From contig CM026426.1 of the NCBI GenBank assembly GCA_014871385.1, positions 47,049,611 through 47,113,610 on the forward strand: a stretch of DNA of 64,000 nt. The letters run 5' to 3'. Source of the stretch: Ceratodon purpureus (taxonomy: Eukaryota; Streptophyta; Bryopsida; Pseudoditrichales; Ditrichaceae). Under the pieces are notes generated by a model. It searched no databases, had not been told where the DNA came from, and was given only the letters and a program-made list of their open reading frames with translations. The translations under genes were made by a program, and so were the position numbers. Positions 101 through 64,000 of the stretch are shown here, piece after piece. Every line of letters begins with the position of its first letter. Position 1 is the stretch's first letter.

Positions 101-3100
101 ATGGCAGCAAGGGCTGAACGAAGCAATCAGTACATTCCCCACTTTGCACTGGACACACGCTATGCCCCGGTCATGAGACGAGGTTCTACGCAAGTGGAGC
201 TGTGCATGAGGAGCTCGTTTCCAACACGGAGGTTGCGTGGAGACACGAACATTGACTTGTGGATCAATGGAGACATTTACCCTGTTGACCCAATGACAGG
301 GAAGCCACCTCCAATCAAGTCGCTAAAAGAGTTCGTTGAATTCATATGTCATGGAGAGCAGGGTCTTCGCGGATATACACACAGGCTGCTGGATCATTGT
401 GTACATGGTCGTACACAGGAGGAGACGTGGATCTAGTTGGCACAGTTGAGCGAAGAAGTGCTTCAGCTTAGAGGCGAAGCTCTGGCCAGCAACTCAAGGG
501 CAGCCCAAGATGTCCAATTGGGGAGAATGCGTTGCCTTGAGTTAGAGAAGAAATGCAGGGATTTGCAAGCTGAATTACAGGCTGTCCGTGATTGCCATGC
601 TCAAAGGGTGGAGCAATTGGAGCGCCATGTGCGGGGTCTCCAAGAAGACGTTGAACGCTGCCAGCGGAGGGCCAGCTTCGAGAAGGAGACCCCCATGGGC
701 ATGCGAAATAGGAGGAGGGCTCTCAGAGGGATTCACGAGTTAAAACCTGGATCAGGTGGATCAAAAGCAAGAGTGAAGCTTGTGCGGACAGTGCTGCAAC
801 CTGATGTGGTGCAGTTTGTTGTCGAAAGGAACCGAGAGAACCGGAAGTGCTCTCAACTGCGGGGGGATAAAGAGTCCCAAAATAGGACTGCAGTAGCACT
901 AGCTCGAATTTTGTCACGGCATGAAGGTGTAGCGCTCGCTTCTCAGCCTGCAATGGCACATGTTCAGTCAGATATTGCGAAAAATGTGCTCAAATCGATT
1001 GGTAAGAGTATTGGACCGGACAAAATTCTTGCTGCTTGCGACCAGGCAGGGGTTTCCCATCGGGGATATGGTGCTCTCTACAAATCTGTGAAGGCTCCCA
1101 TTGCTGCTCTGAACAGAGGAGTCTCCGGGAGTATTTTGCCGAGCCCCTATCACGTGAAACTGCTTCGGCAGGAGTTAAATGCAAACCTGCCACAGTATAT
1201 TGGCGAATACTACCATGCTGAAGGTCGACTTACGCTGCCAGCAAGTTCTAAGAAGAACAAGAAGTCCGAGGACATGGTAAAGGAAGTCGTTTTGACTGAC
1301 AAGAATTCCCTATTCACAGACCTTGAGGTGGTCCAAAGGAGCATGGTGATCTTCTACGGCATCACGGAAGAAGGTAACGTAATCACCTCAGACTATTGTT
1401 TTCAGAGTTTGCTGTCAGCAGGGTTATTTATCAATTAACCGTGACTTACACATCCACTCGCCATGTTTCCACAGAGTTAAGAGGGGCACCGCTGGTATTT
1501 GTCATGAAATTGGACGAGGCCGGGATTGTGAATGGCAAGAAGTTTGAACGGGTCAGCATCACATTCATGAATAGGGCGCTCGACCCAGACATTCAGAGAA
1601 ACCATGCCTTGTTTTTCTCAGTCCAGTCAGAGCAGGAAATCTGGCCAGTGGCAACCTTTCAAGTGGAAAAAGAGTCCTACGAAGTTCTGTCGTGGATATT
1701 TGGGAAATCCAAATTTCCATCTGTGATTGCAGCACAGTCCAGTGGCGAGAAACTCACGGTCCCTGAAGTTGGAGAATTCCATGTGGAGTGGCATCTCGCT
1801 GCGGACATGAAGACGATCAAGTGTATGTACGGGCTTCAGTCGGGGCCGTCGTGTGCGATGAACTGCATATACTGCGAGCAGAAGAGGGCTAAGCCTACCG
1901 TAGGGACAGCAAGCCAGGCGAGTGCTGCCATCAGAAAACGTGGGAAACCGAATTGGGTGGGGGGACTGTTTGCCAACTCTGTGGAGCCAGAACCATGTGA
2001 CATGCGTGCACATACAAGGTGGAGGCCTATCTTGCCAATTCCGTTGCAAAGAGTGCACATTTGTACACTTCACGCCCTAGTTCGCCTAGCGGAGAAGATT
2101 GTGCATCAACACATCATTTATGTCTGGAACATACAAGATCAAAGACTGAGGGCTACAGCCATAGAGCAAATGGAGAAGTCCTTGTCAGCTATCGGGGCTC
2201 ACGGTGGCAATGTGGAGATTAGAAAGGATCCGAAACTGAGTGGCAGCACAGGGAATGTGCCACAGAAGCCATCTTTCAGTGGGGTTGTTGCTAGCAGGCT
2301 ATTTAAACCAAGCGTATGGTCTGGAAACGACAAGGCCTGGAAAGACATATGTCAAGCAGAGAGCAATAATAGTGGCGGCGGTGCACATCGTAGGGCAAGG
2401 GCTGCTATGTGGCAAGCCTTTGAAGAGGTTCTACCATATTTCAGCGGCTTGGTGCTGACAGCAGAACAACGACTCCAGTTCAAAGGGAAGATAGAAACGT
2501 GGGGGAGAACATTTTTGGAGGCCTTCGGAGAGGAGCATGTGTCGCACTACATGGTGAGTTATATGAACGAAGTTTGGGATGAATTAGGGGTTGATGGCTG
2601 ACCTCACTTTTGTCAATTCTCTATCCAGGACTAACCTTGGAGTGGCTGTTGACAGCATGTAATTGTCAGGCATGGCAGTTGGTTTGTGGAGGAATACGGT
2701 AGTCTGGCCGTATGGAGTTGCCAGAGTATGGAGAAATCCCATCATCAAGCGAAGGCAGCGAATCAAGCGCATACAGCTCACGGTGGTGGCAAAGAGCGCA
2801 TCAATGTTATTTTGCAACAATTCCAGCATTGGTACCGAAATATACAGCATCGGTATAAGAAGAAATTAGAGTCCACCAGGGTTCTCAATACCCCGGATGA
2901 TGAGGCAAGATTGGAGGCTACGCGTAGAAGGCGAGAACAATGGCATCGATCAAATGCTGCCAGGGCTTTGGAGAATTGGCGGTCAAGGCGACGGCGTGTT
3001 GGCAAAGCTTGGGTGTGTGATAACACCGTTGGAGGTGATGGAGCCAACAATGATCAAGCAAGAGGATCTGCCAACGAAGATGACCCCGGGGAGGATGGCA

Positions 3101-3207
3101 ACAATGTGGATCCTGAGGAAGGTCTCAACTCCAGTGACGGTGACGATGCTGGCAACAACGTGGACAGCGATGACGCTGGCAGCGACCCTGTGACCCGTGT
3201 GAATTGA
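101..3207 (+). CDS. DDE-transposase-like protein, three exons, one internal TAG
   Basis: The exons are 101-1373, 1475-2553 and 2656-3207. Both joins keep the reading frame and use GT-AG ends, giving about 967 codons. A TAG at 434-436 interrupts exon 1. Residues from about 110 to 200 form a Leu/Glu/Arg-rich coiled coil. Exon 2 holds candidate acidic catalytic residues in FVMKLDEAG and WHLAADMKTIKCMYG, then a CIYC zinc-like pair and RVHICTLHALVRL. Exon 3 holds SMEKSHHQAK and HTAHGGG, then a basic stretch and an acidic Asp/Gly/Asn-rich tail. The order D, D, CxxC, His-rich helix, E resembles cut-and-paste transposases of the CMC/KDZ type. The family is not securely identified. The TAG suggests decay or an unrecognised small intron. 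GCTGNCAGC motifs occur in exons (1234, 2454, 3175) and in intron 1 (1411). Confidence 0.6.
1374..1474 (+). other. Intron 1 of transposase-like gene (101 nt)
   Basis: The donor is GTAACG after a phase-1 codon and the acceptor is TTTCCACAG. Splicing moves the reading from the second to the first frame and joins ITEE to ELRGAPLVFVMKLDE without a stop. The intron contains a GCTGTCAGC palindrome at 1411-1419. Confidence 0.75.
2554..2655 (+). other. Intron 2 of transposase-like gene (102 nt)
   Basis: The donor is GTGAGT and the acceptor is GCTGTTGACAG. Removing it deletes several in-frame stops and joins SHYM to HVIVRHGSWFVEEYGSLAVW in phase 0. The acceptor resembles the element's palindromic motif. 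Confidence 0.75.
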
Positions 3208-4260
3208 GTACAATGCGTTCTAAACTCATTGGATGGCTATTCTAGAATGTGACAAGTCCTTATTTAATTTTTTATTTTTTTAATCGGAGTAGACAGTGGT
3301 TTTTTCTTGAACATGTTTTTTGGTTTATATTCTAGAATAGCCATTTACGAATAGATTTATAAAAAAGATTCGGATTTTATCCAGGAATTGCCTAAAATGG
3401 CTTATCCATTGCTATGTTACTCTTGATAATTATTAAAGAGGCACCCATGGAGAAGGTAGTGATTCCACTGACAGTGAGGTCGCTGGCAGCAAGGAGTACA
3501 GTGACGACGCGAGCAATGGCCGTCTGTGACTTGGCCGCAATGTGTCTTGGTAATTATGTTATAGCTATGTAGAATGTGGCTGGCAACAATGTTTTTTTTG
3601 AATGAGTTAGGCCATGTTTCTCCCCTAAACTTGTTTTGTGGATAGCTCACTAAAGTGCCTAGTCCATGCAATTATTAATCTTCATAATTAATGGTCTTAG
3701 TAATCATATGTACCGGTCACGCTCAAATTAAGATTTTAATTTCTAAGACGATTTTCTAAGTACCCACATCAAATGGGGATGTGTGGTTTAGGGCCATGGC
3801 AATCATTTGCATGGAGTGGCAATTAAGGGAGAAATGAGAGCTTTGCACCAACTCCTCAACCTCCCTTCATTAAACTCTGTTTTAGACTCTCAACTCCCTC
3901 TAAGCCCCCCAAACCTCCCCTAAAAGCGTTCCAATATCCTCTTGAAGTAAACCCGGCCTAGTTTCCAAGGACGCACATGTGGTTGACTCGGGCAGGAAGG
4001 CCTCTCTCTTTTCCTGCCTTGTTCCCATACGACACCCTCCATTGACTCCAACACCTCTTGAGCTCCTCTGTCTTCTTCAGTCGTCCTCTTGCTGTCAGCA
4101 AGCGCCCTCGCGATTGCAATTACCTTGGCAGTTTTGTGGGCGCCGTGGGGAAGTTGGATGTTCAGAGGGCGGTACAGTCACGCACCCCCTTTGGGTCGTT
4201 GAGGATCGCGTGAGGAGACGAAGAGTACCGCCAGCAACGACTTTGAAGGAAGGGGCCGTT
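3208..4260. other. Non-coding stretch after transposase-like gene
   Basis: This stretch is AT-rich with no convincing ORF. It holds palindromes at 3482 and 4091. ATTCTAGAATAGCCATTTA-like sequence repeats around 3238 and 3330. Short ORFs on both strands here look like chance. Confidence 0.4.
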
Positions 4261-4264
4261 GCGG

Positions 4265-4840
4265 TCGACTGCACGAAGCAGCTGCAGCGTGAGGAGCGAG
4301 CCGTCGAGGAGGGCCGTGGAGATTCAACGGCAGGTGGAGCAAGGGGGTCGTGAGCGGTTTTGGAGCAGCAAGGTCGGGAGCGAGGAGCAGCAGCAGGGTC
4401 GAGAGCTGCGGGGAGGTACAGCAAGGAGGACGAAGGAAGAGCAGCAACGTCGTTGGCAAGAAGAAACGCAAGCGCAAGCACTGTGGTGGGTCACGGAAGG
4501 TGATAGAGCGGGGCGGAGCTGCATTACACGGAGCTCGCGTTGAGGGTCACGTGAGGAGCGGCCGTGGAGCTGAAGGCGAGTTCTTGCGGTTGGGAGCTAC
4601 AGCGCAAGGTTTGGGGAGGAGCAGCACGGTCGGGAGCCCGAGGGGAGGGGGGTACAGCACAAGGAGCGGGGTGGAGCTCTCGAATAGTGAGGAGCAGGCG
4701 TGGAGCTCATTGGCGAAGTGAGGAGCGGGCGTGGAGCTGCAGCGTGAAGAGCGGAGTGGAGAAGAACCGAGGCCAGCCGGAGAGAGGGGAGGGTGAGCTA
4801 TAGCAGAAGAAGCGGGGTGGAGCAGCAGGGCTGGGAGCGT
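4265..4840 (+). repeat. Degenerate GAGC-rich minisatellite
   Basis: A GC-rich tract has repeated pieces of the form GTGAGGAGC-GGCCGTGGAGCT, clearest near 4290, 4551, 4687 and 4718, with many GAGCAGCA and GGAGCG variants. It produces long open frames on both strands (for example 4095-4481 minus and 4350-4721 plus) that look like composition artefacts. It lies upstream of the coiled-coil/RING gene. Confidence 0.55.
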
Positions 4841-5161
4841 GGGGTGAGGTGGAGGTTTCTCGGCTGTAGAATCTAGAGGCGCATTGTCACGCGCGGCGAG
4901 AGGGGCTTCAAGCTGCACCGTCTTCCACCGCTGACAGTGAAGCATTGCGAGGTTAGTGATCTGATCGTGTCTATTTTTTTGCAACCTTGCTCCTCCTTAT
5001 GTTGCGGTTGGCCATGTTGGAGCGAACCGACTATGGTGAAGAGAATAGAGTTGCTCAGCAATGGCTGCTAGGGTCGCGGGGGGTAATGGTTTAGAGATGT
5101 GTAGCTTAAATCTCTAATCTGCAAGAATAATACCCTGTTCGTTTCTCTCCTTTCAGCTGCC

Positions 5162-7152
5162 ATGCGCGATCCCCCTTTCGTAAAACGTGTTGTTTTTGCA
5201 CTACCAGCGCCAGGGATGTCGAGCCGTAGGAAGGGAAAGGAGGCCGTCGTGAAGAAGGAGGTCGTCGAGGTTGCTGACAGCAAGGAGGATGGCAACGATG
5301 TTGAGACGCCGTGGGATGACGCCTTCGACTTGGACGGCTTACCCCCTGCACTTCATGCACAGCTCCACCACCTCGCCCCATTTCTGCTGGGTAGGCAGGC
5401 TGCGGATTACGATGAGGACTTCTTCGCCCGCACCTTGCAGCTCTCCAACAAGGGGCTCAAGTTCAGTGACCTCAGCGGCGACAAGCATTGCAGGAAGGCT
5501 GACTTCATCGACAGATGGCCAGAGCGTTCTTCTGGGCGGCACTACGTTGCTGACTGTGAGGATCCGGAGGCCTAGAGGAAATACTGCGAGATGTACCGGT
5601 GGACTTATGGAGGTGACCCCGACAACTGGGCATTTGGGACCTCCTTTCTTCGGGCTTGCCACCTCTACTTTGAGAAGGGCGTGGATGTCAACTTCGCCCA
5701 GAAGGCGGAGGCAATTGTGAAGGGGCGTGAGAAGCTGCCAGGGCGTAATCCGCAGAAGTTGACTCCCCCGGCCTTGAGGGAGCAGATTGAAGCCATTATC
5801 GACTTCCTCGCTGGCCACATCCCCGGTGCTGGCAGCAAGGGCAAGGGAGGAGGGGCGGAGTCGAGCGGAGGAGCCAAGGCAGTTGGAGCGACATCCAAGG
5901 CTTTGATCACGGCCGCGGAGGCGAAGAAGGTCAGGGGACCTAGATCACTGCCCCCTCCTGCCAAGGCCGTGGCTGAAAAGAAGTCCGTGAAGGCCCTTGC
6001 TGCCGTTGCCATCAAGGTGCAGCCCTTGGTGGCAACGGATCCGAAGCAGGTCCTGGAGCAGCAGCGCCTCAAGAAGAAGTCCTTGGAGGCGGCACTTCTG
6101 AAGGTGGAGGCCAGCCGGGACCGCGTGAAGGTCGACCTTGCAACCCAGCGGGACTACATCAAGGCCAAGGAGGCCGAGGAGTCCAAGCTCTATGATGACA
6201 TCTTCTCCGCCCGCGAGGCCTCCAAGAAGGCCGCGGCTGATGGCAACGACGAAGAGAAGAGGCGCTTTGATCACGCGGCCCGCTTAGGCCAAGACAAGCT
6301 GGGGCTTGCAAGCAAGGCACTCCTTGAGGCCCAAGCCCGCATTGACAGGGTCTACAAGAAGTTGGAGGAGATGGAAGCCGATGAGCAGAGACGCCACGCC
6401 GAGGTCTCCGCGCTGACAGCGGAGATCTCGACCTTGGAGTTGGCTTCAGCTTTCTTGCGCCCGAAGAAGGTGCTGGCTTGTTATCCATTGGAGTTCCAGG
6501 TGTTGCCAATAGCCCTGAACGACCCATGCCCCTTCTGCGAGCGTTACTTCGTTGACACCTGCTGCGTACCTTTGTTCTGCGGCTGCTTGGCACATCCCCA
6601 TTGTATGTTTGAGGCAGTCTTCTCCCAAGACGCCCGGTGCCGTCGATGCGAGCGGGGGATGACTGGAGGATGGCTTGGGCAGTGGGGCTTCGACCTCGAC
6701 TCCAAGGCCGCGGAGGAGTTACGTCTCACGGAGGAGATCTTCCTGGCCGAGCCTGCTTCACCACGTGCTGGCAGCAAGAGGCCCGCTGCCCCCTCTGTGG
6801 CCGCGCTTCCGTGGAAGAAGACCAAGGGCGACCAAGGTTTGTTGCCCCTTAACCTATCTGCCCATTGCTACTTGCCTAATTCATTGTTACATCCGAATAA
6901 TTCTTATTTTCTAATTCTTGTTTGCTGGCAGCAACTACAGAGGATGCTCTCCTCGACTCAGACTCCCTGGCGTTCGATCCCACGCAACGCTCTCCTCATG
7001 AGACCCAGGCAGCCCTATCCGGAGAAGGGAACAAGGGCTCATCCGCCACCACGCAAGGACCAGGTGCAGCTGAGAAGAACGAGGACGACACCAACATGGA
7101 GGGACTGTCCAACCTTGTTGAGGCAATTGCCACAGATGCAGCCGTGGAGTAG
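5162..7152 (+). CDS. Coiled-coil protein with C-terminal RING-like zinc finger
   Basis: The exons are 5162-6836 and 6932-7152, 632 codons including the stop, with an in-frame TAG at 5573-5575. The start may instead be the ATG at 5219 (MSSRRKGKEAV). The N-terminal half is basic, then acidic. The middle (about residues 250-430) is a Lys/Glu/Ala-rich coiled coil. Near residue 460 comes CPFC, FCGC, AHPHC and CRRC, the spacing of a RING finger, a fold that usually serves ubiquitin ligases. The C-terminus is acidic and Ser/Gln-rich. The element motif encodes AGSK or ADSK at 5273, 5828 and 6767. A comparable finger occurs in the decayed gene at 54460-55710. Its role in the element is unknown; a regulator or degradation factor would be inference. 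Confidence 0.6.
6837..6931 (+). other. Intron whose acceptor is the element palindrome
   Basis: The donor GTTTGT follows ACCAAG and the acceptor is TTTGCTGGCAG|CA. Exon phase (1) is kept and the downstream frame reads ATTEDALLDSDSLAF to the TAG at 7150-7152. The 3' splice site is formed by the GCTGGCAGC copy at 6924-6932. Confidence 0.75.
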
Positions 7153-8132
7153 ATTCCCACCTTAGATAGTTCCGTAGGCCGGGTTAGGGGTTTGCTGGCA
7201 GCGACTTTTGGTCCGGACTTTTATGGGCTACATTTCTTAAACTTTTCCGAACTTGAAAACAATTTGCCTCTGGATTGCCATGTCTCTTTGAAAGATATGG
7301 CATTCTTGTAACCCTTCCTTTTTATTCGCAACTGTATTTCTTCTTTATTGTGGACTGCTGACAGCAAGGGCTGCTCTTTAGCCGCCATTTTTTTTTTTTT
7401 TCTTATTTCATTATTCGCCACCATGGTCCCTTTCAATTTTGGCCATTGTTGTTATTTACCATCTGCGACCTACTTCATCTCTTATGTACAACTGTTTTTT
7501 ATTTTTATCTTGTTCTATTAGAATCAAGCGTGGTTCTTTTTTTATTTGCAACCTTCATTTTTTCGTCTTTGTTGGCACCAAGGGCTGCATTGTGCCCGCC
7601 ATTGCCAGTTCAGAGCACCAGGTTCACGAAGGAGCCAGCCTCTTCGGAGGAAGTAACAAACTTTACATTCCTTCCTAATTACTTTATATTTGTCAAGTGC
7701 CAAACTCCATTTTGTGCCTCTGAAGGGTCATGTGCTCTATTGTATGCAATTGTTTTTCTTTTCTTATTTTGCGCTGGCAGCAGGCTCCAGCGTCAATGGC
7801 GCCACCACAAGTTCGAAGCAATTTTGCGATTCAGACCCAGGCCCTCTGAAACCCCGGCCATTCTTCAGACTTCTTGTATTTTATTCTATTTTTCATTTTG
7901 CACCCTAGGATTCACCACTGGTAATTGTAACTGTTTTTCTTTTCTATTTCCGCTGGCAGCACGAAGATCAAGGGTAATCACAAATTTGCCTCCATATAAC
8001 ACGTTAATACAGGATGTCCCACAGAAAGTCCTGAATGGTAAGCAAAACCACTACCTGAACTCGCTAACGACTTCGCGAAGAACCTAATGACTTCCCACAT
8101 ACTGTGACTACCCATCCCCGAAATCACTTTTC
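7153..8132 (+). other. Pyrimidine-rich stretch with repeated acceptor-like cassettes
   Basis: No gene is recognised. Pyrimidine tracts end in the element motif at 7194, 7357, 7773 and 7952. Two segments are related: AGCAAGGGCTGC followed by GCCGCCAT near 7362, and ACCAAGGGCTGC followed by GCCCGCCAT near 7577. AACTGTTTTTCTTTTCTATTT recurs before the last two motifs. Each resembles a short intron 3' end, which suggests duplicated intron/exon cassettes. Confidence 0.4.
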
Positions 8133-9471
8133 CTACAGCTCCACAATCTTCATCCTTTTGGGAACCGTGACATCCGCAGCTGTAAGGTGTCTCTCATAGC
8201 GCTGGTTGATCTGCATCCAACAAATCCTGTCATTTTCGTTTGCTGGCAGCAAGGAGCTCTGAACAGCCAATTCCCAACACATCAAAACGACTACATGAAT
8301 TCGGCTAGACTCGTACCTTTTTCTCACGAACACCGTTGGCCTCTATCAAAACCAGGTTGTACTGCCCAGGTACGTCATCTCCAAGTGCCATTGCAATTTC
8401 GTGCCGCAGGTGGGATACTGGCCAACCCTTGCCAACTTCGAATGTTGGCAGCAAGTTCCCCCTAAACATACAAGACACTTCCACCATCACCTCCTCTGGT
8501 AGGTGATCCAACGCTTCCCACTGACTGTTGGCAGCCCCCCTATACCTTGTATACATGAACCTGGTGTATAATGTTTGTCTTCCCACGTGATAGCGGAAAA
8601 CAATGCTGGTCCTGTTGGCAACGCACTTGATGACATCTTGGCCAATGTGGAACTTCTCGTTCCACCCTGGGTTCATTAGACTGCTCAGCAGAGCCTCGGA
8701 TGGAGTACTCAAAACAAACAATGTAGGTGTCCGCCTAATGCTGTCAGCAGCTACCGCAAACAAATCAACCATAACATGGATTGGCATAAACCATTGGTGG
8801 TGGACGAAGCTGCTACCAGTTGTTGCTTTCATGGCATTTGCAAAATTGAGAGTGAGCTTTGTTCTAAACGCCTCAGATGTGTGCATGTCTGGCAAAGGCC
8901 ACTCCACATCGTTGAACCCTGGAAGCGGGAGTGCTTCAACCTTCCCGTACAGCGTGTCACCTGTTGGAGGCAAATACAGACCACCAAGGAAGAATGTACT
9001 TATGTCCAGCAACTCCGCGTGGCTCAGTCGATTCCGTGTTGCCTCCCCAATCTCAACATGGAGCACAAGAATGGGACCAAGGATAGATGCAGGATGTACC
9101 CAATCCTCCGAAACCGACGCGTACAGGTAGTTTGCCATTCCCAATTTGGTTGCTGCCTCCGTAGGATCCAAGCGCAGATGCCTTGGTTGATATGCATGTT
9201 GCACAAGCACCTTATCGAGGTCGCATGCTCCATGCTCCGTGGAGATCCAAGAGAAATCTCTGATCTGCGCTTTGAAGGCCCCCCGAAAATTTTCTCCACC
9301 ATGTCGCCTTGCCTCTCTACCCCAAGGCCCATCCGACGCTGGTTGCAGCATAACCCATGAATCACGATCCACCCTCATGGGGATCCAGTTGCCCTCCAAG
9401 TCTTGAGTATTATACAGAATGACACTCTGTACGAGGGAGTTTGGCCGTGAAGCCATACCACTAGAATGCAT
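8133..9471 (-). CDS. Unknown protein, about 426 aa, two exons
   Basis: Exon 1 is 9471-8317 (M to VREKK) and exon 2 is 8258-8133. The proposed intron is 58 nt, with GTACGA and GGCTGTTCAG ends and kept phase; without splicing the ORF ends at 8305. I do not recognise the family. It looks soluble, with no membrane segment. The stretch from FEVGKGWPVSHLRHEI to YNLVLIEANG has the look of a ubiquitin-like beta-grasp segment, a weak guess. It has no internal stops, unlike most genes here. The motif is read here as LLPAN at 8242 and AADS at 8740. It may be an accessory gene of element 1, read opposite to the two upstream genes. Confidence 0.5.
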
Positions 9472-10132
9472 GAAATTTTCGACTGTGAACTCAAAAACTT
9501 ACAAATGGTGTCGTCGCTGTCATCAACCGCCAGAACTACACGCTGTCAACACACCCTCCGCCATCACGAACGGCTGAAACCTGCGTCCACGGCCTCGCAA
9601 CCAAGGTACGACCTACCCTAAAACCTCATCCCGAAACCCCAATTCCCAACTCAGGTACTCTCTCCAACCTATGTGGATGGCAGACCGCTGGCAGCGTTGG
9701 AAGACCACTACAGCTAAGCCCTAAATCTCTACTGCACAATGCGTGACCACCCACAACCGAAATCGAACAACTTCGCCCAGCCTTTGGAGGCCTCCACCGC
9801 TCCATCCTGCTTGACAACGCAACGACAACAACTCTCTCAGGGGAACGCATGAGGTTCGGAATGACCGTTGGCAGCATTTCGACATCAACACCTTGTGCAC
9901 GTTGCATCTCAAAGGGGGAGCGGCAATTCGATTTCGGTAGGAAGCCTGTGGAGTCAGTTTTGCAGGAGTTCATAAAGCCCACCACTGCTGACACCCTTCT
10001 GCAATGCTCGAATTCCGTGCGCGAAGAGGCTCCGTTCTCGACCTGCGGGACTACACGCGCGGGGGAGGGAAGCCTTCCTGCGCGACTATTGGCCGGACCC
10101 CCCCATTCGCGATTTGGCTCGCTTTTGGCGAC

Positions 10133-10159
10133 CTGCTGGCACAGTTGGTGCCAGCAGGT
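10133..10159. repeat. Perfect 11-bp inverted repeat, 5-nt loop
   Basis: CCTGCTGGCAC, then AGTTG, then GTGCCAGCAGG. The arms contain the element motif half-sites GCTGGCA and TGCCAGC. It is the last trace of the motif family on the right side of element 1, and it could be a hairpin or a pair of binding sites. Confidence 0.8.
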
Positions 10160-10169
10160 AAAGTGCACG

Positions 10170-11535
10170 GGCATGCCCAAAATTTTGGCACAAATAACAT
10201 GGAAAAGGCCCGTTGGAGACCCCAAACTGCTCCTAATGTCCAGCTCATCTAATTAAGCATTATAACTGATCACTCACTTACCAACAACATAAGCGTTTAA
10301 AATAACAAATATTGACGCTATCGACGCAACCACCTTGCAATTTGCAAATTTCAATGTGCAACATAATCCGTTGATAAGCAGCACAGCGGCCGCAACGACG
10401 ATGCAGAATGCCAAATGTTAACTAAATGAATTGTCCTCATCCGGATGTCGTAATACTGCAAGTTTGAAGTCGCAGATTGGACATTGACCACCTTCATTAG
10501 ACTCGTGTCTCACATTCACAACGCGTTCCATTTTCTAGTAGTCCGGCTAACTCATGTTGCCACAATTCTCGTCCCTCCAGTGGCGGCATGTCCTCCATCT
10601 CCTGTCCTCCTAAACAAACTTAGTGGCTACTTAAACAAACTTTTTGGCACTTAACTTCGAGGTGGTTTTAAGAGATAGACCGGATCTGATACCACCAATG
10701 TCAAATCGACGAACGTTTGATTTTAGTTTAGTAGCAAAACGCCTTTTCAGAGGGCGACCATCACCTTCACTTTCCATCTGTCTATTTTCACACTCCTACC
10801 AACATTTAGGAGTCCATTTCGCGGCGTCACACTAACCCTAATGGACACCGCAGTTCTGAGATCATGGGGTTCGGCTCTAGATATTGATCCATGGCCATCA
10901 TCGCCTTCCTTGGCTAGAAGCTGTTCCTCTCCAAATTCATGTGGTGCATTCCTTGCACCCTCTTCAGAAGAGTTGAGGCAGCACCTAGTGATGGCGTTTC
11001 CTGTGAGAATGTTGACTTGCCCCATCATTGAAGGCCAACTTTAATTAGAATCAAGGCAGAATGAGGTACCCACTTTTTGTCGAGTTTCTGAAAAACTATT
11101 CCTCAAGAGCGCACAAGAAAACAAATGATGTCATCTTCACATGGCCTCCCTAAACCTGTTATGTTTTGTCAATTGTTTTTTCTGTTGGCGACCATATTCT
11201 GCGCATTGAACAGTTTTCTTCGCCATTTCAAAGTGAGCACCCTAAAACCCATCTAACTGTGGATTACTTACAATCCAGCATATTATTTGTATAATAAGAT
11301 TAATTTTCTCCATTGTCATGTGTATCTGGTGTCTACACTCCCAACCTTAAATTGTTGCGTTTTGATATAACAATCATTTGTAGATTTCCGATGAACATTC
11401 AACCATGCTTACAAATTCAATTTATCTGATCACTTTGTCTATAGCATTTATTATCTATTTGACTCGCATGTCAATAATCTATTTCCCCTTGATGCTAGAC
11501 TTGCTTAAATATTAGCAGAATCACAGGGTCTTTGG
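10170..11535. other. No recognised gene
   Basis: This is moderately AT-rich DNA. Short ORFs (for example 10841-11044 plus) show no recognisable domain. The GCTGNCAGC motif is absent. Confidence 0.3.
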
Positions 11536-15090: not shown

Positions 15091-15854
15091 TGCGGGTATT
15101 ACTAGAGAGTCAGGTTTTTCTGTTGTTCTTCAATCTCATCCTTGCGGGTAACGGGGAAAGTTAGCATGCGTGCGGCGAGCGGCGAGCAGAGAGCGGCAAG
15201 CAGAGATACGAGAGCAGAGATTTGACCTTTGAACACCCATTTGATAAAAAAAAATACCCTATAACCGTGGGTAGTATCTAAATTTAGAGTTATATTTTTA
15301 GAATAATTTGTAGTAATTGTGTGTAATTCTCCCAACCCATATTTAACCTACAATTAAACGAGAGTAAGTTAAATTAGGGCTGACCTCATGATGACGTATT
15401 GCCCTGAGTATGCACCTCTAAAGTTGTTTTAAATCCTACATCTTTTTCTGTTTCATATACCTTGCCGATTGACAATAGGAATCCATCTTCTTGCTATGAT
15501 CTAGGATACGATAAAAACAGTGAATTATTGGCACTTGATACTTTAGAAAATAATTTTAAAGATAGATTTAAAAATAAGCTGAGCTTTGTTGCTTCTGCCA
15601 CTTTATAAAGCATGCCATTGAAATCCTCTTGAGATTTCTATAAAATCGTGTACAATAATTGTATTACTTAGTCAAAAAATTATCCTTTCCAAATTTGCTT
15701 GTCCTCACTGATAATTCCATCGGCTATAGATAAGATCTATTCTAGCTTTTTATGTCTCACAATTCCATATAAACCATAGAGGTTTCTGGTCTACTTGTTT
15801 GGAGTCATCAATCGATACACAGAATCTTGCAATTCATAGGCATTGTTTGAGAGA

Positions 15855-16304
15855 ATGAGCAATACCTTTGAATTAGTTGCTTGTGAAACAATTCTTCAAG
15901 ATCTGCTTCGGCGGATGGCAGATGATCCTGATCTCTGGGAATCAGTATGTGTCAGTACAACTCAAAGTTGTAGTCCTCCAGTAGTGATCACATTTGAAGA
16001 TGTGGAGAATGCTCCTGATGTGTCGAAGCTCTTGAGACGTGAGATTGACAACAGTACTGAATATGCTTGCCTCCGACTTGCAAAATGGGATTACGATTCA
16101 TACTTGGAGGGGCAGTGGACTCCCAAGAAAGACTTTGAAGCGTTTCGCTTTTACGTGAACTGGAATATTTTTAAGAGTTCCAGGATTCTAGCACATCCGA
16201 TTCGCAATGACAGGTTAGAAACAGCGTCATTTGGTGAACTTCGTTGCATTGAGTTAGATCAGTTGAGGTCGATCCTCATGGACAACAGAAATCAACCAAT
16301 GTAG
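15855..16304 (+). CDS. Unknown protein, 149 aa, intact
   Basis: The ORF is open from ATG (MSNTFELVACETIL) to TAG with no internal stop. It is acidic, helical and soluble, with no known motif. It converges on the minus-strand gene at 17488-16562 with 257 bases between their ends, so the two probably share a terminator region. An accessory role in element 2 is inference only. Confidence 0.45.
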   Translation: MSNTFELVACETILQDLLRRMADDPDLWESVCVSTTQSCSPPVVITFEDVENAPDVSKLLRREIDNSTEYACLRLAKWDYDSYLEGQWTPKKDFEAFRFYVNWNIFKSSRILAHPIRNDRLETASFGELRCIELDQLRSILMDNRNQPM

Positions 16305-16561
16305 GTGGAACACGGAGAGAAAGTGATTCCTAGTGATGGTATTTGGGTCTCTCCTAAGCATATATGAGATTGGTGTGATTAAGAAATCATGAATGCAATA
16401 CAGTTGTGTATGAGTAGTGATGTATGTATATTATGAGCCTTTCAATTATATGTGCATTCGGGCTAATTACATGAGTTGCACTTTGTATCTATCGATATCT
16501 ATGAATGGTTAGATTATCCTTCAACGCATATTCTAGAAAACCTTTTTACAGCTCACTATAG

Positions 16562-17488: not shown

Positions 17489-17759
17489 GTATTTCTTTTC
17501 AGCGCATTCAAGTGAAATTGGATAGGGAGAGGCATTGAAAATTTCTACGGGACTGTGTCGAATAGATCATGAAGCATCTACGCAAATAAAAATTATTAAA
17601 AAAACCATCCAGGTAATAACATGAATCTCAAACACCTGATTCTTCATATTTTCAAAGGTGAAATCCACTATAGATATGTGCAGCACAATGAGTAATCGGA
17701 AATTGTAATGAATTAGGGTCAAACATAGAAGAAGAATCACAGTATTAAATGGCATTTAT

Positions 17760-18400: not shown

Positions 18401-18403
18401 GGG

Positions 18404-46610: not shown

Positions 46611-46615
46611 AACAG

Positions 46616-47050: not shown

Positions 47051-47059
47051 ACTAAGTAG

Positions 47060-47625
47060 AGCTCCAACTTTCTTCTTTGTCATTCATAAGTAAGCGGCTA
47101 TATAGGTTAGCGGTCTCTGAAGCATCTGCTAGGGGTACGAAGAATATGAGAGACAATATCTAACACAAGTTTTGTATCATGTACTCAAACTCCAATGCAA
47201 GTCTCAAAACACTTATGATGTATATATACTATCTACGTTTGCTTCATCTCTCTTCTATTTTCAATTCTCATGTATACCTTGAACAAAGTGACATCCAGGG
47301 TCTCACATGTGATTTTCTCCGTTCATCAAAAGTCCCAAATATGGCTGTCGGATCCGACAGCCTATTAAGGCGAGGTTCAGACATGGGGAAATTGACAAAT
47401 ACCTCCACTGACATGATTGCCACTAAAACCTTTGCAAATACAACTTATTTAAATCCGGATTTTATGTATAGTTTGAAACATTACAGCATCAAGGATGCAT
47501 CTTGCCTTTTGACCTGTTGCAATATCTCCATACCTATCTCTTTAGCCAAGTATATCAAACTTATTGCCAAAGAGGCCTTAGCACAAAAAAAAAAACAATG
47601 AGCAATCAAGCATCTCACAACGCAA
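47060..47625. other. Intergenic stretch with perfect 20-mer palindrome
   Basis: It holds GGCTGTCGGATCCGACAGCC at 47343-47362. The ORF at 47179-47601 looks like chance. Confidence 0.4.
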
Positions 47626-47629
47626 AGCC

Positions 47630-49019
47630 CTACATCTTCTTACTCTGATATAGAGGCTTCTCTAAAACTGCGTTCAAGTGAACCTTCTTTCGAATTGGCC
47701 ATTTCATATCTTCGAGGGACACAAAAGTTGGAGCATTGTATTGAAGACGAATGCTCCTTTCGCTTGAAGACGTCCTTGACCTAATCGTCGAGGTCGTAGC
47801 AAGCGTGTACCTAGGTGGAGGCCCCATCAATTCGGTTGCATAGCTGTTGCAAAGATGGTCTCGTAGTAAAACCTTCTGTTGGAGAGACAGCTCACTAAAG
47901 GGTGTAAGCACAATAAAGTGGACCACAAAGTGCAACATGTGACCACTAACAAGTGAATATGAAGTGTGCTGTTTTTAAAAGCTCAAAGCTGATTTTGAGC
48001 ATTTTGGTGTAGTTTTTGAGCATTTTGGTCACTTTTTAGGGTGTCGCAAGGTATCTTAAACACATCTTCATAAATAAAACATCCTGAATTGAAACCAAAT
48101 TTGACCACTAGCTGTAAATCATGAAAATGAACTTTTCCGAAGTCTTGATTTCTTCATCTGGTGCCCTCTATTGTCTTTGGAGGATGTTTTTTTCAATTTA
48201 AAAAACAATGTTTGGTGAAAAAAAAGTGACAAAAAGTACAGCGGAAGTGACCCTCTTAAATAACATGCTTGCGGTACTTTTGGAACTCTAAACCAATTAA
48301 TGAGTATATGAATTGACTATTTTAGAAGACCTCCTAAATATATAGAGGGCACTGCAAAATTAAAAGTGATTTTGGACAAAACCCTAAGAGGTTATGTTCA
48401 CTTTTCCAAATGACTGCATTCACTCTGCTTGGAATTAAAGCCTTCATACAATAACCTTAAAGTGTCTACTTTGCACGAAACTTTTCCAAGTTGTAGAAAA
48501 ACAAGTTGAGAATCCATATTAGCAAAAAAATTGACTTCAATTACATCTTTCCGTCAATTTTGTGCAATTTTTGCAAAAGGGCTGAAACTGACAAATAGTT
48601 AAGCACTTTTTTGGTCCACTTTACCATGCTTACACCCTAAGTGTAGTGTTTACCAAATCCTCGTCAATCTCAAACGGAATGTTGCGGTCAGTTGTGAACA
48701 ATGTCAAAGCCTCTACCCAAAACCAGTATATCATATCGGTACCCCACTCATCCTTCCTCTTCGTGGCATCGCGACTCTCCTTGCTATCAACAACATATGC
48801 CGACCAAGCTGGCATGGTGTCAATCAAGCTCATCTACTGCTCGTCCCTCTTGCGCAGGTTCTCAAGAAGGGTCATGTAGTCGTAGCCCCATTCGCGGCTT
48901 TCTATCAGTGATTGATTGATTTCCGGCATCAAATCTAGAAGGATTTCAAACATGGCCGCCTCTGGTGTCACCCATGGCTGGTTGAAGAGGTCACTCACAG
49001 CCTCAACGTCCATATCGAT
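47630..49019 (-). pseudogene. Unknown protein gene interrupted by a 739-bp transposon
   Basis: Read on the minus strand from about 49019: MDVEAVSDLFNQPWVTPEAA, then YDYMTLLENLRKRDEQ, an in-frame TAG, then MIYWFWVEALTLFTTDRN and EIDEDLVNTTL. The insertion follows, after which SELSLQQKVLLRDHLCNSYA continues in the same frame to a TAG at 47630. The Ser codon is rebuilt exactly at the target site. No domain is recognised. Confidence 0.5.
47899..48637. mobile_element. 739-bp non-autonomous DNA transposon
   Basis: The ends are GGGTGTAAGCACAATAAAGT followed by GGACC at left, and its reverse complement with three mismatches at right (GGTCCACTTTACCATGCTTA then CACCC). TAA follows on the right (48638-48640) and TAA precedes on the left (47896-47898) with one extra A. 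A TAA/TTA duplication points to PIF/Harbinger type; TA (Tc1/mariner) is not excluded. It has no ORF. Confidence 0.8.
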
Positions 49020-49441
49020 AGAGAATAGAGGAATACTGCCAACCTAGACATAAATCTATTCTACGTTAACTCAGTTGCGATGGGAGACCAAAGTGCCGTA
49101 GCTGATAAACAAGTTAGTACACTCCCTAAATCCTCCTCCCATCCTCTTCCAGATATATGCAACATGGTCAGCCCTTGGAGAAGAAGCACTCCCCTTCACT
49201 CGAAGCATTTAATTATGGTTCAATACCCGAGGATTTCTAGCCGAACTTGCACTTAATTATCAGTAAAATACATAATCATGTCGAGCTTTTGATTCGGCCT
49301 CTTCCTTAAGACATTACGTCACAATTATTTCAAAATCATTATAGTAATCTGAAAAGCTGGTTTCACTGTTTCCACACGCTAGGCTCTATAACATATTTTG
49401 AAGAATTTAGGATAAAAAGAACCATGCTTCAAATTACGAAA

Positions 49442-49890
49442 GACTCAAATATGGGTTCCCAATCAATCCATGGCTTGAATTGGTACCCAAGCCATACCAA
49501 GAAATGAGTATCATGGGGGCATCAACCGGGGGCTTAGAAATCACGGGGGTAGCACCATGGCTTTCCCCCGTGTATGTGTTTCTCAAAATTGGGCTGTCGG
49601 ATCCAACAGCTCATTTTTGCCATCACCAACTTCCGGCGGAAAGGAAAACCCGAACACTCCCCCTCCCACTTGCCCCCGGGCCCCCATGCCCCAAATATTC
49701 CCCCCCATTCCCCCCCCCATACCGCGTGGCCCCTTCACCAAGCAACCCGGTCAGCACACATAAGAGGACGAGGACGATGCTTTTAAAATTTGGAATCAGG
49801 TTTAGAGTGTGAGCCAAGGCCCCTGCCCTGCCCATGAGCCCATACTGGAGCCCCAATCCCTTGTCTCGCATGATGACTCGCTTCAACTTG
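49442..49890 (+). repeat. Dispersed repeat R1, copy 5
   Basis: Longest copy, about 450 bases, with all blocks present and the palindrome at 49599 (GTCGGATCCAACAGC). Confidence 0.8.
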
Positions 49891-50454
49891 ATATTTGAAT
49901 TTGAAATTAACCAGGCAACAAAACTATAGTCCAGCTGAGAATATTTACTTGATGTTTGAAATTATTGTGTGAATTGATTTGGTTGTTTCTCTTTTTCAAA
50001 TTTGGGCCAAGTGTTCTACTTCTCCTTGAGCAATTATCATGAAAATTAGATATTCACCATCTTTAAGTTAGTTTATACAGTAAACAAATTGATCTATGTA
50101 ATATGATATGAATTGCTTTCGAGATGAAGACTATCTTATGATTAGGCTCAGAAATTCTACTCAACTTAGGATTTGGTAACCTCAGAAAACTATCTAACAT
50201 AGGAATTGAGTATAAGGCCGCAAAGACAAAATTATGTAGAAACATTCTAGATATTTACCCGCATTTTTCTTCCAAAATTTTCTTTCAATCCCCACCTGGA
50301 ATTGATAACACCGTAATACCTTGTGTGTCTAAAAGGAAGTATTTGTAACTACCCCGCATGTTTTTTCCACGGTCATAGGCCACGGTCATAGGTCATTTGA
50401 AAATTCCCCCCAAATGAAGTTTCCGAAAAAATCTTAGCCGTCGAAAAATTCTCT

Positions 50455-50570
50455 GCTCTCGGCTTTGTGCTCACCGCTCTACGCTCGCACACCAGTTTTC
50501 CCCCCGCCGCTGGCGGCCAGGACGGTCTCACTGTCAGAATGCGGCCGTGGACCGCTAGATTGTTCTAGCT
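50455..50570 (-). repeat. Right terminal inverted repeat of element 3
   Basis: Read on the plus strand it has TGCTCACCGCTCTACGCTCG then CAC. This is the reverse complement of the left end over about 23 bases, with weaker similarity to either side. Confidence 0.65.
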
Positions 50571-59181: not shown

Positions 59182-60680
59182 TCAATGTTTTTGGTAACTA
59201 TCAGTTCGCCTCCTCTCTTCTACTTCCTTTCTTCTTAACCCTAACTCACTCCCTTCTCTCTGCCTCTCACACTCCATAATCGCTCCCTCTCTCCACAGCT
59301 TGCTACCTTCTCTATTTTCTCGACAACTCCAAAATGTGAGGTCGAGGCTTCTTCTTGGTTGCGGTTTGTCGACTCTCCAACCCCAACCCGGTCCAAAATC
59401 TTCATCCAAGTCGGATGGAACTTCATCCACTGTCCGTTCTTGTCCTAAGTGGATGAATGAAAGTTCCTCGTTGAATGTACGTTGCTCTTCTTTAATGGGC
59501 CGCCCACTTAACTTCCCCATTACTTCCAACACTCCACATCCAATGATTACTACTTCTTTTGTTTTTTCTTTTTTTCTTATTTCTTTATTTTTTTTATTTC
59601 CGTTTGTTTTTTCAATCACCTCCTTTATGTCTCCTTCTTTTGACTGCTGTCCTTCCTCTTGCTCATTTTCATTTTTCTTTTGATTTTTAACTTTTCTTTT
59701 ACTGTTTTCTTTACCCCTCTGCTGGTTTACTGCTTCACTCCCTCCTTCTTCACCGCTCTTTTCATCCTTTATACCTGTATTTTCTAACCTTGACTGGACA
59801 CTATCCCCCTTTTTCTCGTTGACCAGTCCTCTGGTCAAATGTCCTGGTGTCCTGGTTTCAACTACTCCCTTCTCATAAAATCTATATGGTTTTAACTTAT
59901 TAATGTTAACCAAGACTGGGTCTGGTTCAAAAAACTTTACCAAGACCAGTAGAGCAGTATTATTGGGGAGCCTGTACTGGACCCTATAAGGTCCAAACCA
60001 CCGACTTTTCAATTTCCCCACATGTTCCTTGTGGCCCTAGGATTACCAGAGCACATAATCGCCTACTTGAAAATCCTTTCGCTTCTAGTGTTGATGACTC
60101 CAAAGTGCCCTGTTCCGCTGGCTCGCCCCTACTACCTTCGGGGCCTCCAGTCTTAAAGTGTCCATCTGCTCCAAATCCGCAATCATGGCTGCCCACACCC
60201 TTGTTGGTGTATAATCAATTTCGCTATTGGTCTTCCTGGTCGATACTATGTACTCGGTTGGCATTAACGGATGTAAGCCATTGACCAGTTGAAACGGTGT
60301 GTAACCTGTAGTAACTTTGTAGGAAGTCCTGTAGGAGAGTAGTACAGTATGAAGATGCTCATCTCAATTGGTTCTCCTATCATTGACCAGCTTGCTCAGT
60401 AGGTGACCAATCACCTAATTTGTTGATTCTGCCTAGCCATTACCCTAGGGGTAATAGGTTGTTGATGTTGGAGCAGAAAATGCTCCACCAGGTGTTCTAT
60501 AGCCTCATTAATAAAATGAGAACCTTGGTCACTTACAAGTGTCAAAGGACACTTGTATCTAGAAAGGATTGTCTCATACGGAGACTTAGCAGTAACTGCT
60601 ACTGAATTGGTTTTCAATGCCCTTGCTTCCTGTGGAAAGTGATTTCCATGGTTGGCACGCCAGAATACTAATTCCGGTAG
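59182..60680 (-). pseudogene. Ty3/gypsy integrase C-terminal half, decayed
   Basis: Minus strand: FWRANHGNHFPQEARALKTN, LVSDQGSHFINEAIEHLVEH (second catalytic Asp), then GNG-stop-AESTN (catalytic Glu), DEHLHTVLLSYRTSYKVTTG, FQLVNGLHPLMPTEYIV, and GKLKSRWFGPYRVQYRLPNN with VNINKLKPYRF, the GPY/F module of Ty3/gypsy integrases. A 200-residue charged, Lys/Glu-rich tail follows to the TAA at 59182. Reverse transcriptase and protease are missing; the fragment is cut off near 60680 where element 5 begins. Confidence 0.75.
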
Positions 60681-61008
60681 AAAAATGATAAAAATTAAAA
60701 AAATTTATGTTAGGAACACGGAAGTACTACTTAGATAAATGTAACAACCGGTTAAGACGGTTGGCTGAATAAATAAGAGAACCGGAAGGTTTGCTGGGTG
60801 AGATCCGGTCGTCTGAGTCAAAGGAGAGGAAGCACCGTCCATGTGACAAAACCCTGACCCAGCGGACTTAGGGTAACAGCCGGAGGGTGCAATTCACGGT
60901 GGAAAAGTGGCTGCGACCATTAAAGCTCCGCCGGCTGCGAGCGTTCAATGATGAAAGGCTACGACCGTCCGTCATGATGAGCTACGAACGGGCGGGAGTG
61001 AGTGCAGG

Positions 61009-61017
61009 TATAAAAGG
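61009..61017 (+). promoter_or_regulatory. TATA box (TATAAAAGG)
   Basis: It is a good plant TATA match about 200 bases before the gag-like ORF, followed by a C/T-rich segment suited to a transcription start. Confidence 0.5.
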
Positions 61018-61217
61018 AGGAAGAGCAACCGTGCTCCTCCTTTCTTTTGTCATTTTGTGGCGCGCTGGATCCTTGTTTTCCTCGGCGGAGTGCGCAGTTA
61101 GGGTTGTGACGGTAGGAGAGAGACGGAGAGACGGAAGTGTTTCCGTTACTTGAGGGATTGTGGTGAGGATAGTGCATAAAGGTGCTACCGGAGTGACAAT
61201 GAAGAGGACTTAGCCAG

Positions 61218-63092
61218 ATGGGTAGGAAGGGGAAAGAGCCCGCGGAGGAGGGACAGTTGTTGAAGGTACAACGGGTCATGTCGTTGATGCCGGTAGACGA
61301 CGGAGAGTGGGAACTCCTCCGGACCGCCTTAGAGGTCATGGGCTGTGCGTTACTATTGGACAAGGCGTGGGGGTGGAGACATTCCCTTCCGGCACAGGAG
61401 ATCCTCGTCAAGAACCCCGACAATCGAGGAACCATCCGGGGAGAACCGGAGCAGTGGACGGCACAAGACTGGAGGGACACGTACGGCTTCACCAACGTTG
61501 GGGAGGTCTCGGTACCGGAGGCCCGGGACTTCGTGTGGAATTATATCACGGGGTCCGGAGATAGGAGAGAGGGATGGGACCTGGACGACATCAAGGATGC
61601 GAGAGCCCGGAGGGTAGTAGGGTTTATGAACCCTATTTTCCATCCAGAAAAGCCCAAACGGATCACCATCAAGTGGGCGTCCATTTTCCTCGGAGCCATG
61701 GACGGTGAGATCTCCGTAGACAGGGGCCTCATGATAAAGACGATAGTCGACCGGCAGGTAGCCAACCTCCGGAAGACCAAGAAACAGGCCACCTGCCTTC
61801 CGTCTTTCCTCGTCCACCTCTACCGTCACCGGGGGCTGTTGAATCCTAAGGAGATCCTGGAGTATGACGAACTCAAGAGCATGCAACGGTACGCTGAACC
61901 GGAAGAGGTGTCTGATCAGGACGATGATGATGATTGTATGGAGGTCTCCCCCACGCCGGCTAAGAGACCCCGTCCCAGCCCGGAGAAGGGACAGCCGTCC
62001 GGATCACCTCGGACTCCCACCCCGACCAAGCGGAACCTGAACACGGAAGTCTTCAAACCCACCGGACCACCGGAGCACACCGAGGACCCGTGCCAAGACT
62101 TAGTCAACCTTTCGGAGCAGGTGTCGGCGTATACCCAGTTCCTACAGTCAACGAGGCAGCTGGAGGGCCGGTTGGCGAAGGAGGTAGTTTCCCTTACGGG
62201 CACTAACCGGTTGGAAGACTGCCTGGTTATCCTTCGCAAGCACCGGGACCTAGCCAGTCTACACGCCAAGCACATTGACCAGATGGGGCAGTACCGGGAG
62301 AGGATCAACCAGCTCGAGCAGGAGGTGCATGATGCCTAAAAGGACTTCAATGACGCCCGTGACCGGGCAGCTCATGCCATCCAGTCAATTGTAGAGGTCA
62401 AGGCCACCTTAGCCCTTCCGGTGGATGTGGCCAATCTGTGCGCCGTCTACCAAGCCTTCTTGACCCGCCAACCGGATCCAGCTCGGAAGTTGATCGTGAA
62501 ATTCATGCACGACTGGACGCAGGTGATGAGGGACACTTGGTTGCAGATGAGACACTTCGTGGAGATCATCAGCGCCGGAAAGGATGGTCCCTCAAGACCA
62601 CCAGAGCCACCGGCAGATTGAGAGGAGCCCAGACCATCAACACCAACCATGGAACCGGCACAGGTACTACCTTTAGCCTCTCCGGTACAATCGACCATCC
62701 GGCCAGTGCAACCGGAGCTTGCACAACCGTTGGAGGATCCTCTCCCGGACACCTTGGACAGTTTGCACAATCTGCCCAACCCGGCGGGACTTGAGACTGT
62801 CAACTCCGAGAACATCTCTTTGGAGGCGGCCCAAGGTCCACCACTAGAAGACTTTGTTCCGGTATAGGGCTCTCCAGAACATCTCCAGGTGGATCTCAGT
62901 GCAATCCCGGTGGCTGCACGATCTCCCTCCCCGGCGGTCCAAGCAGGACGAGCCCGGAAGACCATCAACCAGCCGGCAGCTGATACCCCGGAAGAAGGCC
63001 CTTGGCTGAAGAGACTGAAGAAGGGAGCACAGAAGAAGGAACGACCGGATGGAACCCGGCACAGCCCACAGTTCGATAAGAACAAGGAGTAG
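61218..63092 (+). pseudogene. Gag-like protein, one frame with three internal stops
   Basis: ATG at 61218 (MGRKGKEPAEEGQLLKVQ). The same frame runs 625 codons to TAG at 63090, with TAA 62337, TGA 62619 and TAG 62865 and no frameshift. The N-terminal 240 residues (EARDFVWNYITGSGDRREGW, PIFHPEKPKRITIKWASIFL) resemble the plant transposon protein domain. Then come an acidic DQDDDDD stretch, a Pro/Ser-rich linker with KRPRPSPEK, a coiled coil around 62150-62420 and a Pro/Glu-rich C-terminus. No enzyme domain is present, so it may depend on a partner element. Confidence 0.5.
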
Positions 63093-64000
63093 GGGTTAGG
63101 ATAAGGATTGGATAAAATGGCAGCGACTAACGATTGGGCTCAAGTGCACCCGGCTGTCAATCCGGATAGATAGCGGCAGTAACTAGGAATAGAAGGCGGC
63201 CACCGGTCCAAAATTCCCAAATCCAAGATCCGGAATTTCTGGATCTCGGTTGGCCACTTGGTTGCTTTAGGACCGATAGGTTTAGTACTTAAGCTGGACG
63301 TTTTTCCAAGGCCGGGGCCTTGTTTTGTACGCCGTTTTGTTGTTGCAATTGAGAATATACTTTTGGATTTGTTGTGTCAACCGGCTGACTGACAGGTCCG
63401 TTACCGTAATGGTTTGTTGGTACTATTGTCTTCAGTAGTGTTCCGGAGGAGTGTTGAACAGTGGGATAGTTTGGAGAGCGCCTGGAGAGACTAAGAAGGT
63501 GTCAAGCGTCGAGTGTTGACGGTTTTCAGTCTCGGAAGGAGCCTGGAGGGGAGGAGAGATGTACTGTAGCAGGGCTGGTAGTCTTAAGGACACGGAGGGC
63601 CGTGTGTACACCGGGATCCGGGAACGGACCGGTCGCTTCCTGTAGATGGGATAAAAGCCGGATTTCCTACTGCGAACCAATCCGGAAGGGAGATGATATA
63701 GTTAGGATACCGTACAACCGTAAGGTGATGTCGTTGTAGTATGATTTCCGTATCCATAACCGGCACTGAGTAGCTATCCGGACCGGTACCTAGCCACACG
63801 GAAGGATTATTACTCCACTCTCCGGGTGGTAGATAGGAACAGTGGGGTGTCCAGCCACTTGAAAGGATAGACGGATCAGTGGGAACCAGCCACTAGTCTA
63901 AAAAGCCGGAAAATAGGAACAAGGCAAAAACTACCGGACCAGACCGACCGGTCAAGAGACGGAAGACGGTTGGATTCGGGTGGTAATTTCCGTTATGATC
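63093..64000. other. CCGG-rich non-coding tail
   Basis: No ORF with protein-like composition was found. CCGG words continue at high density. It may be the 3' region of element 5. Confidence 0.4.

Follow-up and report, generated by a model that had tools for sequence, protein, structure and literature searches.

Near element-exclusive palindromic words in large transposons of the moss Ceratodon purpureus

The window and element E1

The stretch analysed here, referred to as the window, comprises 64,000 nucleotides of contig CM026426.1 of the moss Ceratodon purpureus (C6:47049611-47113610) and holds the high-copy element E1, the large transposon-like elements E2 and E3, and part of a retrotransposon-like element, with short two-fold symmetric words distributed largely element by element. 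A sequence-only reading of the window had proposed that each transposable element carries a private palindrome, read by a family-specific DNA-binding or modifying protein; the observed distribution is confirmed for four of the five words concerned, and the interpretation as element-specific self-codes is partly supported. Contig C6 is one that we take to be the V chromosome. The genome searched amounts to 362 Mb in 151 contigs; a genome of 360 Mb, with U and V chromosomes of more than 100 Mb each, is given for this moss (PMC8000587).

When perfect dyads of any sequence were counted across the window, with 20 block shuffles as the null, those that stood out were GCTGnCAGC (20 copies, versus a shuffle maximum of 9 for any dyad with arms of 4 and a gap of 1), CCGTTAACGG (five copies), and TCGGATCCGA (four copies), the last two versus a shuffle maximum of 2 for 5+5 dyads, while 8+8 dyads numbered 9 against 0.7 in the shuffles. 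A scan by segment (5-bp half-sites, gaps of 0-26, five null runs per segment) found repeated dyads in excess of the null only at 1-10.3, 18.2-19.5, and 26.9-50.5 kb, and none above it in the remaining four segments. The AT-rich stretch that had been singled out as a control is free of the words, as claimed (none in 23918-26883).

E1 occupies positions 1..10300 (plus strand), as judged from protein matches and from three diverged copies that align over most of its length; it is truncated by the left edge of the window, and its ends are not fixed. Its transposase-like gene (437..2601, plus strand) comprises two open reading frames (ORFs; 437-1438 and 1378-2601) with a probable intron at ~1370-1462, supported by 63 homologous proteins and tblastn exon blocks, and a second protein (5105..7165, plus strand; ORFs 5105-5575 and 5576-7165; four homologs at 49-85% identity) is a candidate partner or reader. 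Neither the transposase-like nor the second protein matched a Pfam family, and no relatives of the E1 protein were confirmed in viral and prokaryote contigs. Of 1080 candidate genome matches to the transposase-like protein, 107 were scored, with identities of 92-100%. E1 is a high-copy family (at least 107 copies), and the open frames kept by many of these suggest recent activity. No relation of E1 to E2 or E3 was detected.

The word GCTGNCAGC, previously described as confined to about 1.2-9.7 kb, occurs 20 times in the window, with 19 copies in the coding and non-coding sequence of E1 (657..9695, starting at 657-9687; motif count and dyad scan) and one at 31852; one more is located outside, ~700 bp beyond the left edge (position 9300 of L005). 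The 19 perfect copies in 1-10300 compare with 0.35 under a Markov-1 model (maximum 2 in 100 runs) and with 16 one-mismatch copies, against ~6 expected; among half-site gaps of 0-20, a gap of 1 alone stands out (19 occurrences; all others at most 3). Inside ORFs, 11 copies are present versus 0.63 after synonymous codon shuffling (maximum 4 in 2000). Seven of these sites (657, 1234, 2454, 5273, 5828, 6412, and 6767) are backed as coding by homologs and occupy all three codon phases, and site 1411 sits in the probable transposase intron. Given the excess over synonymous shuffling and the use of all three phases, the signal is to be placed at the DNA level. Apart from a few adjoining bases the copies have no flanking sequence in common, which rules out the copying of one longer repeat as the source of the word. 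Splice acceptors were likewise rejected as its cause, as a T-rich stretch precedes some of the non-coding copies but never the exon copies. The word is old in the E1 family; the three diverged copies retain it intact at 7/13, 14/18, and 4/6 aligned sites. Several motif changes in these copies (L025-L027) are of the C-to-T type (CAGC to TAGC or CAAC) that is expected of methylated cytosines.

Elements E2 and E3 and their common scaffold

E2 (15154..23920), delimited by comparison of its ends, has terminal inverted repeats and lies between TGCGGGTAACG and TGCGGGTTACT, a target duplication that is imperfect (9/11 bp equal). Its motif 2 dyads (18405..19396) are of the CTGCCG-TTAA or TCAA-CGGCAG type and lie partly in ~106-bp units; TGCCGTTAACGGCA is found in five exact copies at 18406-19381, within the 18.4-19.4 kb first reported, together with two near-copies. 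A transposase fragment and an S1-like accessory gene (16562..17566, minus strand) are all the protein content left to E2. A relative of E2 with TCAA centres is nested in another, GATC-type element on C2 (copy B), where it is flanked by an exact 10-bp target duplication, ATGATCCACG, and retains its own centre inside that host (11/11 exact sites).

E3 (26884..50530) is collinear with A-type elements and has candidate terminal inverted repeats at 26884-26973 and 50449-50530 (77% identical over 90 bp), with no convincing target duplication at these ends. It shares seven DNA blocks in the same order, at 64-72% similarity, with a family of copies on C1 and C2, designated A-E, the right end of which is common to A, B, and D; the left end is not fixed because B, C, D, and E stay alike past the point at which A departs. 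GATC-centred dyads, CTGTCGGATCCGACAG and its near-copies (29 at up to four mismatches), extend over 27129..49610. For TGTCGGATCCGACA, all 26 window sites at up to two mismatches, four of them exact, start at 27130-49595, which agrees with the confinement to 27.1-49.6 kb that had been claimed; genome-wide, 591 exact copies compare with 0 for the reversed control. Two arrays of 117-bp units contain the dyad, one at 32810..33429, between the transposase and FLYWCH-like blocks, and one at 38958..40324, inverted relative to the first and situated between the ParB-like and methyltransferase-like blocks.

A 251-bp miniature inverted-repeat transposable element (MITE; 30209..30459) with an exact 9-bp duplication, AGGTTCACC, is inserted in E3. 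The MITE is real and holds the only exact GTGACGTCAC (30278), but the asserted restriction of such sites to it fails: one further copy has a single mismatch, and the 21 hits at up to two mismatches are spread across the window. The MITE also carries several GTCGTGAC-type repeats.

Motifs 2 and 3 conform to a single scaffold, CTGYCG-N4-CGRCAG, and this common form rules them out as independent words. Genome-wide, 3,671 sites match it exactly, versus 63 for its reversed control. Among 60 exact TGYCG-N4-CGRCA sites in 294 kb (the window and fetched loci), the centre is GATC in 42, TCAA in 12, TTAA in 5, and GATA in 1; the first 50 listed of the 3,671 sites have TTGC in 36 (arrays of 201-202 bp and two others), TTAA in 4 and TCAA in 5 (mostly one alternating 106-bp array), and other centres (GTGC, GCTG, GCAG) in 5 sites, which belong to elements outside the sample. 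On the basis of the sampled loci and these first 50 sites, the four-base centre varies by element type, being GATC, TTAA/TCAA, or TTGC. Element F, which adjoins A, has 20 exact scaffold sites with TTGC in all. Related elements can thus differ in centre, F and the nested TCAA element having 60-74% identity across their protein blocks.

The scaffold is often accompanied by arms at a set distance. GATC-type sites at up to two mismatches number 103 and fall into 22 flank-distinct groups (151 sites in 32 groups at up to four mismatches, one TCAA array and probably some chance matches among them); across these 22 groups, 21 of 44 half-sites show a C-rich hexamer whose inner edge lies 32 bp from the axis, versus a mean of 1.3 and a maximum of 3 beyond 45 bp. 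In E3, the left arm reads TTTCC at 38-41 bp from the axis in 19 of the 29 sites, and the right arm reads GGAAA at 39-42 bp in 17 of the 29; neither is present within 60 bp of 82 sites at other loci, so the arm sequence differs between families. Scaffold sites largely avoid gene blocks (0/29 in the window, 2/48 in A, 2/35 in B, 0/21 in F). Arrays lie between the ParB-like and methyltransferase-like blocks in E3, A, and B, between the transposase and FLYWCH-like blocks in E3, and between divergent genes in the nested element in B, in F, and in E2.

Exclusivity was tabulated over 24 parts totalling 304 kb, namely the window and fetched loci of the same genome. GCTGNCAGC is found 20 times in E1, 7, 14, and 4 times in its three diverged copies, and 3 times in the remaining 263 kb; TTGC scaffolds are confined to F, TTAA/TCAA scaffolds to E2 and its nested relative, and GATC words to E3 and A-type copies. 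The resulting word-by-element table is near-diagonal, with the word switching along with the element where types nest, and in this sample the words are nearly exclusive to their elements.

Protein blocks and known systems

Four protein blocks are common to E3, A, B, the nested E2 relative, and F. In E3 these are a transposase C-terminal block found by tblastn (31353..32776, minus strand), a FLYWCH-like zinc-binding block (34089..35532, minus strand), a ParB-like block recognized from motifs (37601..38203, plus strand; 58% identity to L016:7675-8643), and a methyltransferase-like block (40879..42246, plus strand; 38% identity to L017:2080-3546). The "-like" names are our own reading, none having reached a curated cut-off. 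A SWIM-type finger match in a relative of the transposase block (L016:1794-3308) has E=0.014, N6_N4_Mtase matches L017:2080-3546 with E=1.2, and a DNA methyltransferase model matches an E2-type copy with E=0.085, all below cut-off. The weak hits to DNA methyltransferase models concern one motif in the same region of two diverged copies, and where DPPY would be expected, the two copies seen have DVPE or DIPE. Alignment of this region to a phage ParB-methylase is also weak (E=0.0065, probability 5.8%). The ParB resemblance gave no ParB_N hit and was not borne out by family, PDB sequence, and structure-model tests; the phage WO ParB-methylase, run as a positive case, was matched by both ParB_N and N6_N4_Mtase at E<0.001. 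A PDB sequence search with two proteins returned nothing apart from one chance-level hit, and a tblastn search of phages returned one phage, in two records, at E ~6.

The methyltransferase-like block recurs in several large transposons (window 40879-42246; L017 2080-3549; L015 409-1959), on the same strand as, and downstream of, a ParB-like block. This order matches that of bacterial ParB-methylases and was not confirmed by models.

Mutator-like elements (MULEs) have 8-11-bp target duplications, terminal inverted repeats, and SWIM and FLYWCH fingers (PMC6446971). The E2 types share the inverted repeats and the duplication length (exact 10 bp in the nested relative, 9/11 bp in the window E2) and have finger-like blocks, whereas ParB-like and methyltransferase-like blocks are not named in the consulted portion of that account. 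No Pfam MULE domain was hit in the element proteins; E2 and E3 are for this reason called only MULE-like, even though the class is matched in the length of the duplication, the inverted ends, and the fingers.

The closest known counterpart contradicts the statement that nothing comparable had been described in eukaryotes: in the sequence-specific anti-silencing system of Arabidopsis VANDAL transposons, VANC proteins bind short motifs, particular to each family, that have accumulated in tandem repeats in non-coding parts of their own elements, such as introns and upstream regions (PMC5735166; PMC10398659). The VANDAL motifs, YAGTATTAY and AGTTGTCC/AC, are not described as palindromic in the available portions of these papers. 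The E2 and E3 types resemble this system in having a family-specific short motif in non-coding tandem repeats, unlike E1, the word of which also lies in exons; related families with different motifs are likewise seen here in the TCAA and TTGC elements. Mutator-like elements with accessory proteins are a further common trait, the likeness being one of architecture; no VANC homolog, which would bind the motif and remove methylation, was found, none having been sought. Compared with the VANDALs as so far consulted, the moss elements have a scaffold in dyad form whose centre and arms vary, are much larger, and, in E1, carry the word inside exons. What is unusual is the dyad symmetry, the exchangeable centre, and the presence of a word in exons. 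No account of such words in mosses appeared among the open-licence PMC papers listed (the top 10-15 of each search), with PMC9946827 and PMC8000587 consulted.

The S1-like accessory protein is found in two element types. The E2 protein is 33% identical to one encoded at L017:4473-5555 (plus strand) in copy B, a GATC-type element; it ends in KRPKL-H-EL and bears a weak likeness to plant self-incompatibility S1 proteins, its match to Pfam Self-incomp_S1 falling below cut-off. The "Lanisha" elements of Ceratodon sex chromosomes, large DNA transposons in what is probably the same genome, may be identical with these elements.

Candidate roles of the words

The explanation favoured here, with moderate confidence, is that the palindromes serve as element-specific recognition sites of dimeric DNA-binding proteins encoded by the elements, likeliest in a VANC-like role. 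E2, E3, and their relatives are large MULE-like transposons whose sites place a four-base centre between two CTGYCG half-sites, often flanked by C/G-runs at about three helical turns. As the centre differs by type, the protein of each type would serve its own elements and leave others alone, and the bound word may label the element as self and shield its genes from silencing by the host; E1 would use the separate word GCTGNCAGC, also within exons. A VANC-like role is judged likeliest because arrays lie in introns and between divergent genes, and regulation or anti-silencing is preferred to end recognition alone because the arrays are internal. If this explanation is correct, sequence-specific self-recognition by transposons would extend beyond the Arabidopsis VANDALs to a moss, in a readable grammar of fixed half-sites, variable centre, and fixed arm distance, and the readers could be put to use as sequence-specific epigenome tools. 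Since related elements with different centres adjoin or nest, co-evolution of reader and word is directly testable. The exon-borne word of E1 raises the question of how a DNA signal persists inside protein-coding sequence.

Several observations weigh against such recognition sites. Pfam and NCBIfam searches of the E1-E3 blocks gave no family above cut-off, leaving the candidate readers unassigned, and AlphaFold2 models of the ParB-like and methyltransferase-like proteins are poor (mean pLDDT 37 and 43). The three diverged E1 copies show no extra conservation of, and no selection for, GCTGNCAGC, which decays at approximately the background rate (motif-base identity 0.933, 0.965, and 0.958 versus 0.934, 0.957, and 0.929). 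The GATC word is common to at least two families (the A-E family and E3, 64-72% similar in DNA blocks) and is therefore not fully private, which rules out an E3 core peculiar to one family. Of the proposal that each family has a word of its own, what stands is that different types carry different near-exclusive two-fold words; motifs 2 and 3 share a scaffold, and GATC is shared by two families. Lastly, many copies of motifs 2 and 3 arise by tandem duplication of longer units.

A less likely alternative, but one that retains an appreciable chance, is that the sites bind the transposase or a TnpA-like helper for assembly of the transposition complex, their specificity following from transposase divergence. 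CACTA elements provide the precedent, with family-specific subterminal repeats bound by the element-encoded TnpA. The E3 genes have inverted arrays and single sites to either side, which would suit this role, as would the zinc-finger-like transposase blocks in all autonomous-looking copies sampled. Nevertheless, unlike the CACTA repeats, the arrays are mainly internal, the largest lying in the ParB-like/methyltransferase-like interval or between divergent genes, away from the termini; the E1 word runs through exons; and the E2-type ends begin with GGG and have a 10-bp duplication instead of CACTA ends and a 3-bp duplication.

More speculative, and rather doubtful, is an elaboration of the favoured explanation into a combinatorial self-address, wherein one dyad scaffold, with arms at a distance of three helical turns, would have its centre changed clade by clade along with the reader that the element encodes, be it a ParB-like, methyltransferase-like, or zinc-finger protein, and the unrelated E1 would write a word of its own through its exons despite synonymous freedom, such that several self-codes might compete within a genome.

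That the words have no function and result from tandem duplication, gene conversion, and sequence composition, with CCGG and GCTGNCAGC reflecting codon or sequence bias, is improbable. The CCGG-dense part of a long terminal repeat (LTR)-retrotransposon-like element at 60631..64000 gives this idea some of its weight: the density that had been reported only after 60.7 kb is confirmed, at 67 sites in 60.6-64 kb versus 21.2 expected from dinucleotides (~3-fold), but 54.9 are expected when 3-mer counts are fixed. The tandem units of many E2- and E3-type copies and the lack of extra motif conservation in dead E1 copies point the same way. On the other side, the dyad and arms are common to 22 flank-distinct groups, GCTGNCAGC has unrelated flanks, and both GCTGNCAGC and CCGG exceed synonymous shuffling (for CCGG inside its ORF, 22 versus 12.8, with a maximum of 21 of 1000). 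Outside the window, an 81%-similar element on C1 is rich in CCGG (23.4/kb versus 7.3 expected), and the other 22 parts have ~0.5 to 2.0 times expectation.

Similarly unlikely is that the centres (GATC, TTAA, TCAA, TTGC) are modification sites of the element methyltransferase-like protein in a self mark akin to restriction-modification: the methyltransferase-like block adjoins arrays in E3, A, B, and F, and the weak model hits and phage alignment fit, but every hit is below cut-off (a ParB-methylase of the phage WO kind would have ParB_N and N6_N4_Mtase, seen here as no hit and E=1.2), DPPY is replaced, the structure model is poor, and the TTGC and TCAA centres are not palindromic.

Two minor observations concern sequences beyond the dyads. 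Within the GATC-type element at L017, positions 6280-7419 are repetitive with a period of ~100 bp and have long open frames on both strands. In the CCGG family (window 60631-64000; C1 ~6097584-6110356), CCGG occurs about every 45 bp, and the C1 copy contains two matching 3.4-kb stretches that resemble very long terminal repeats.

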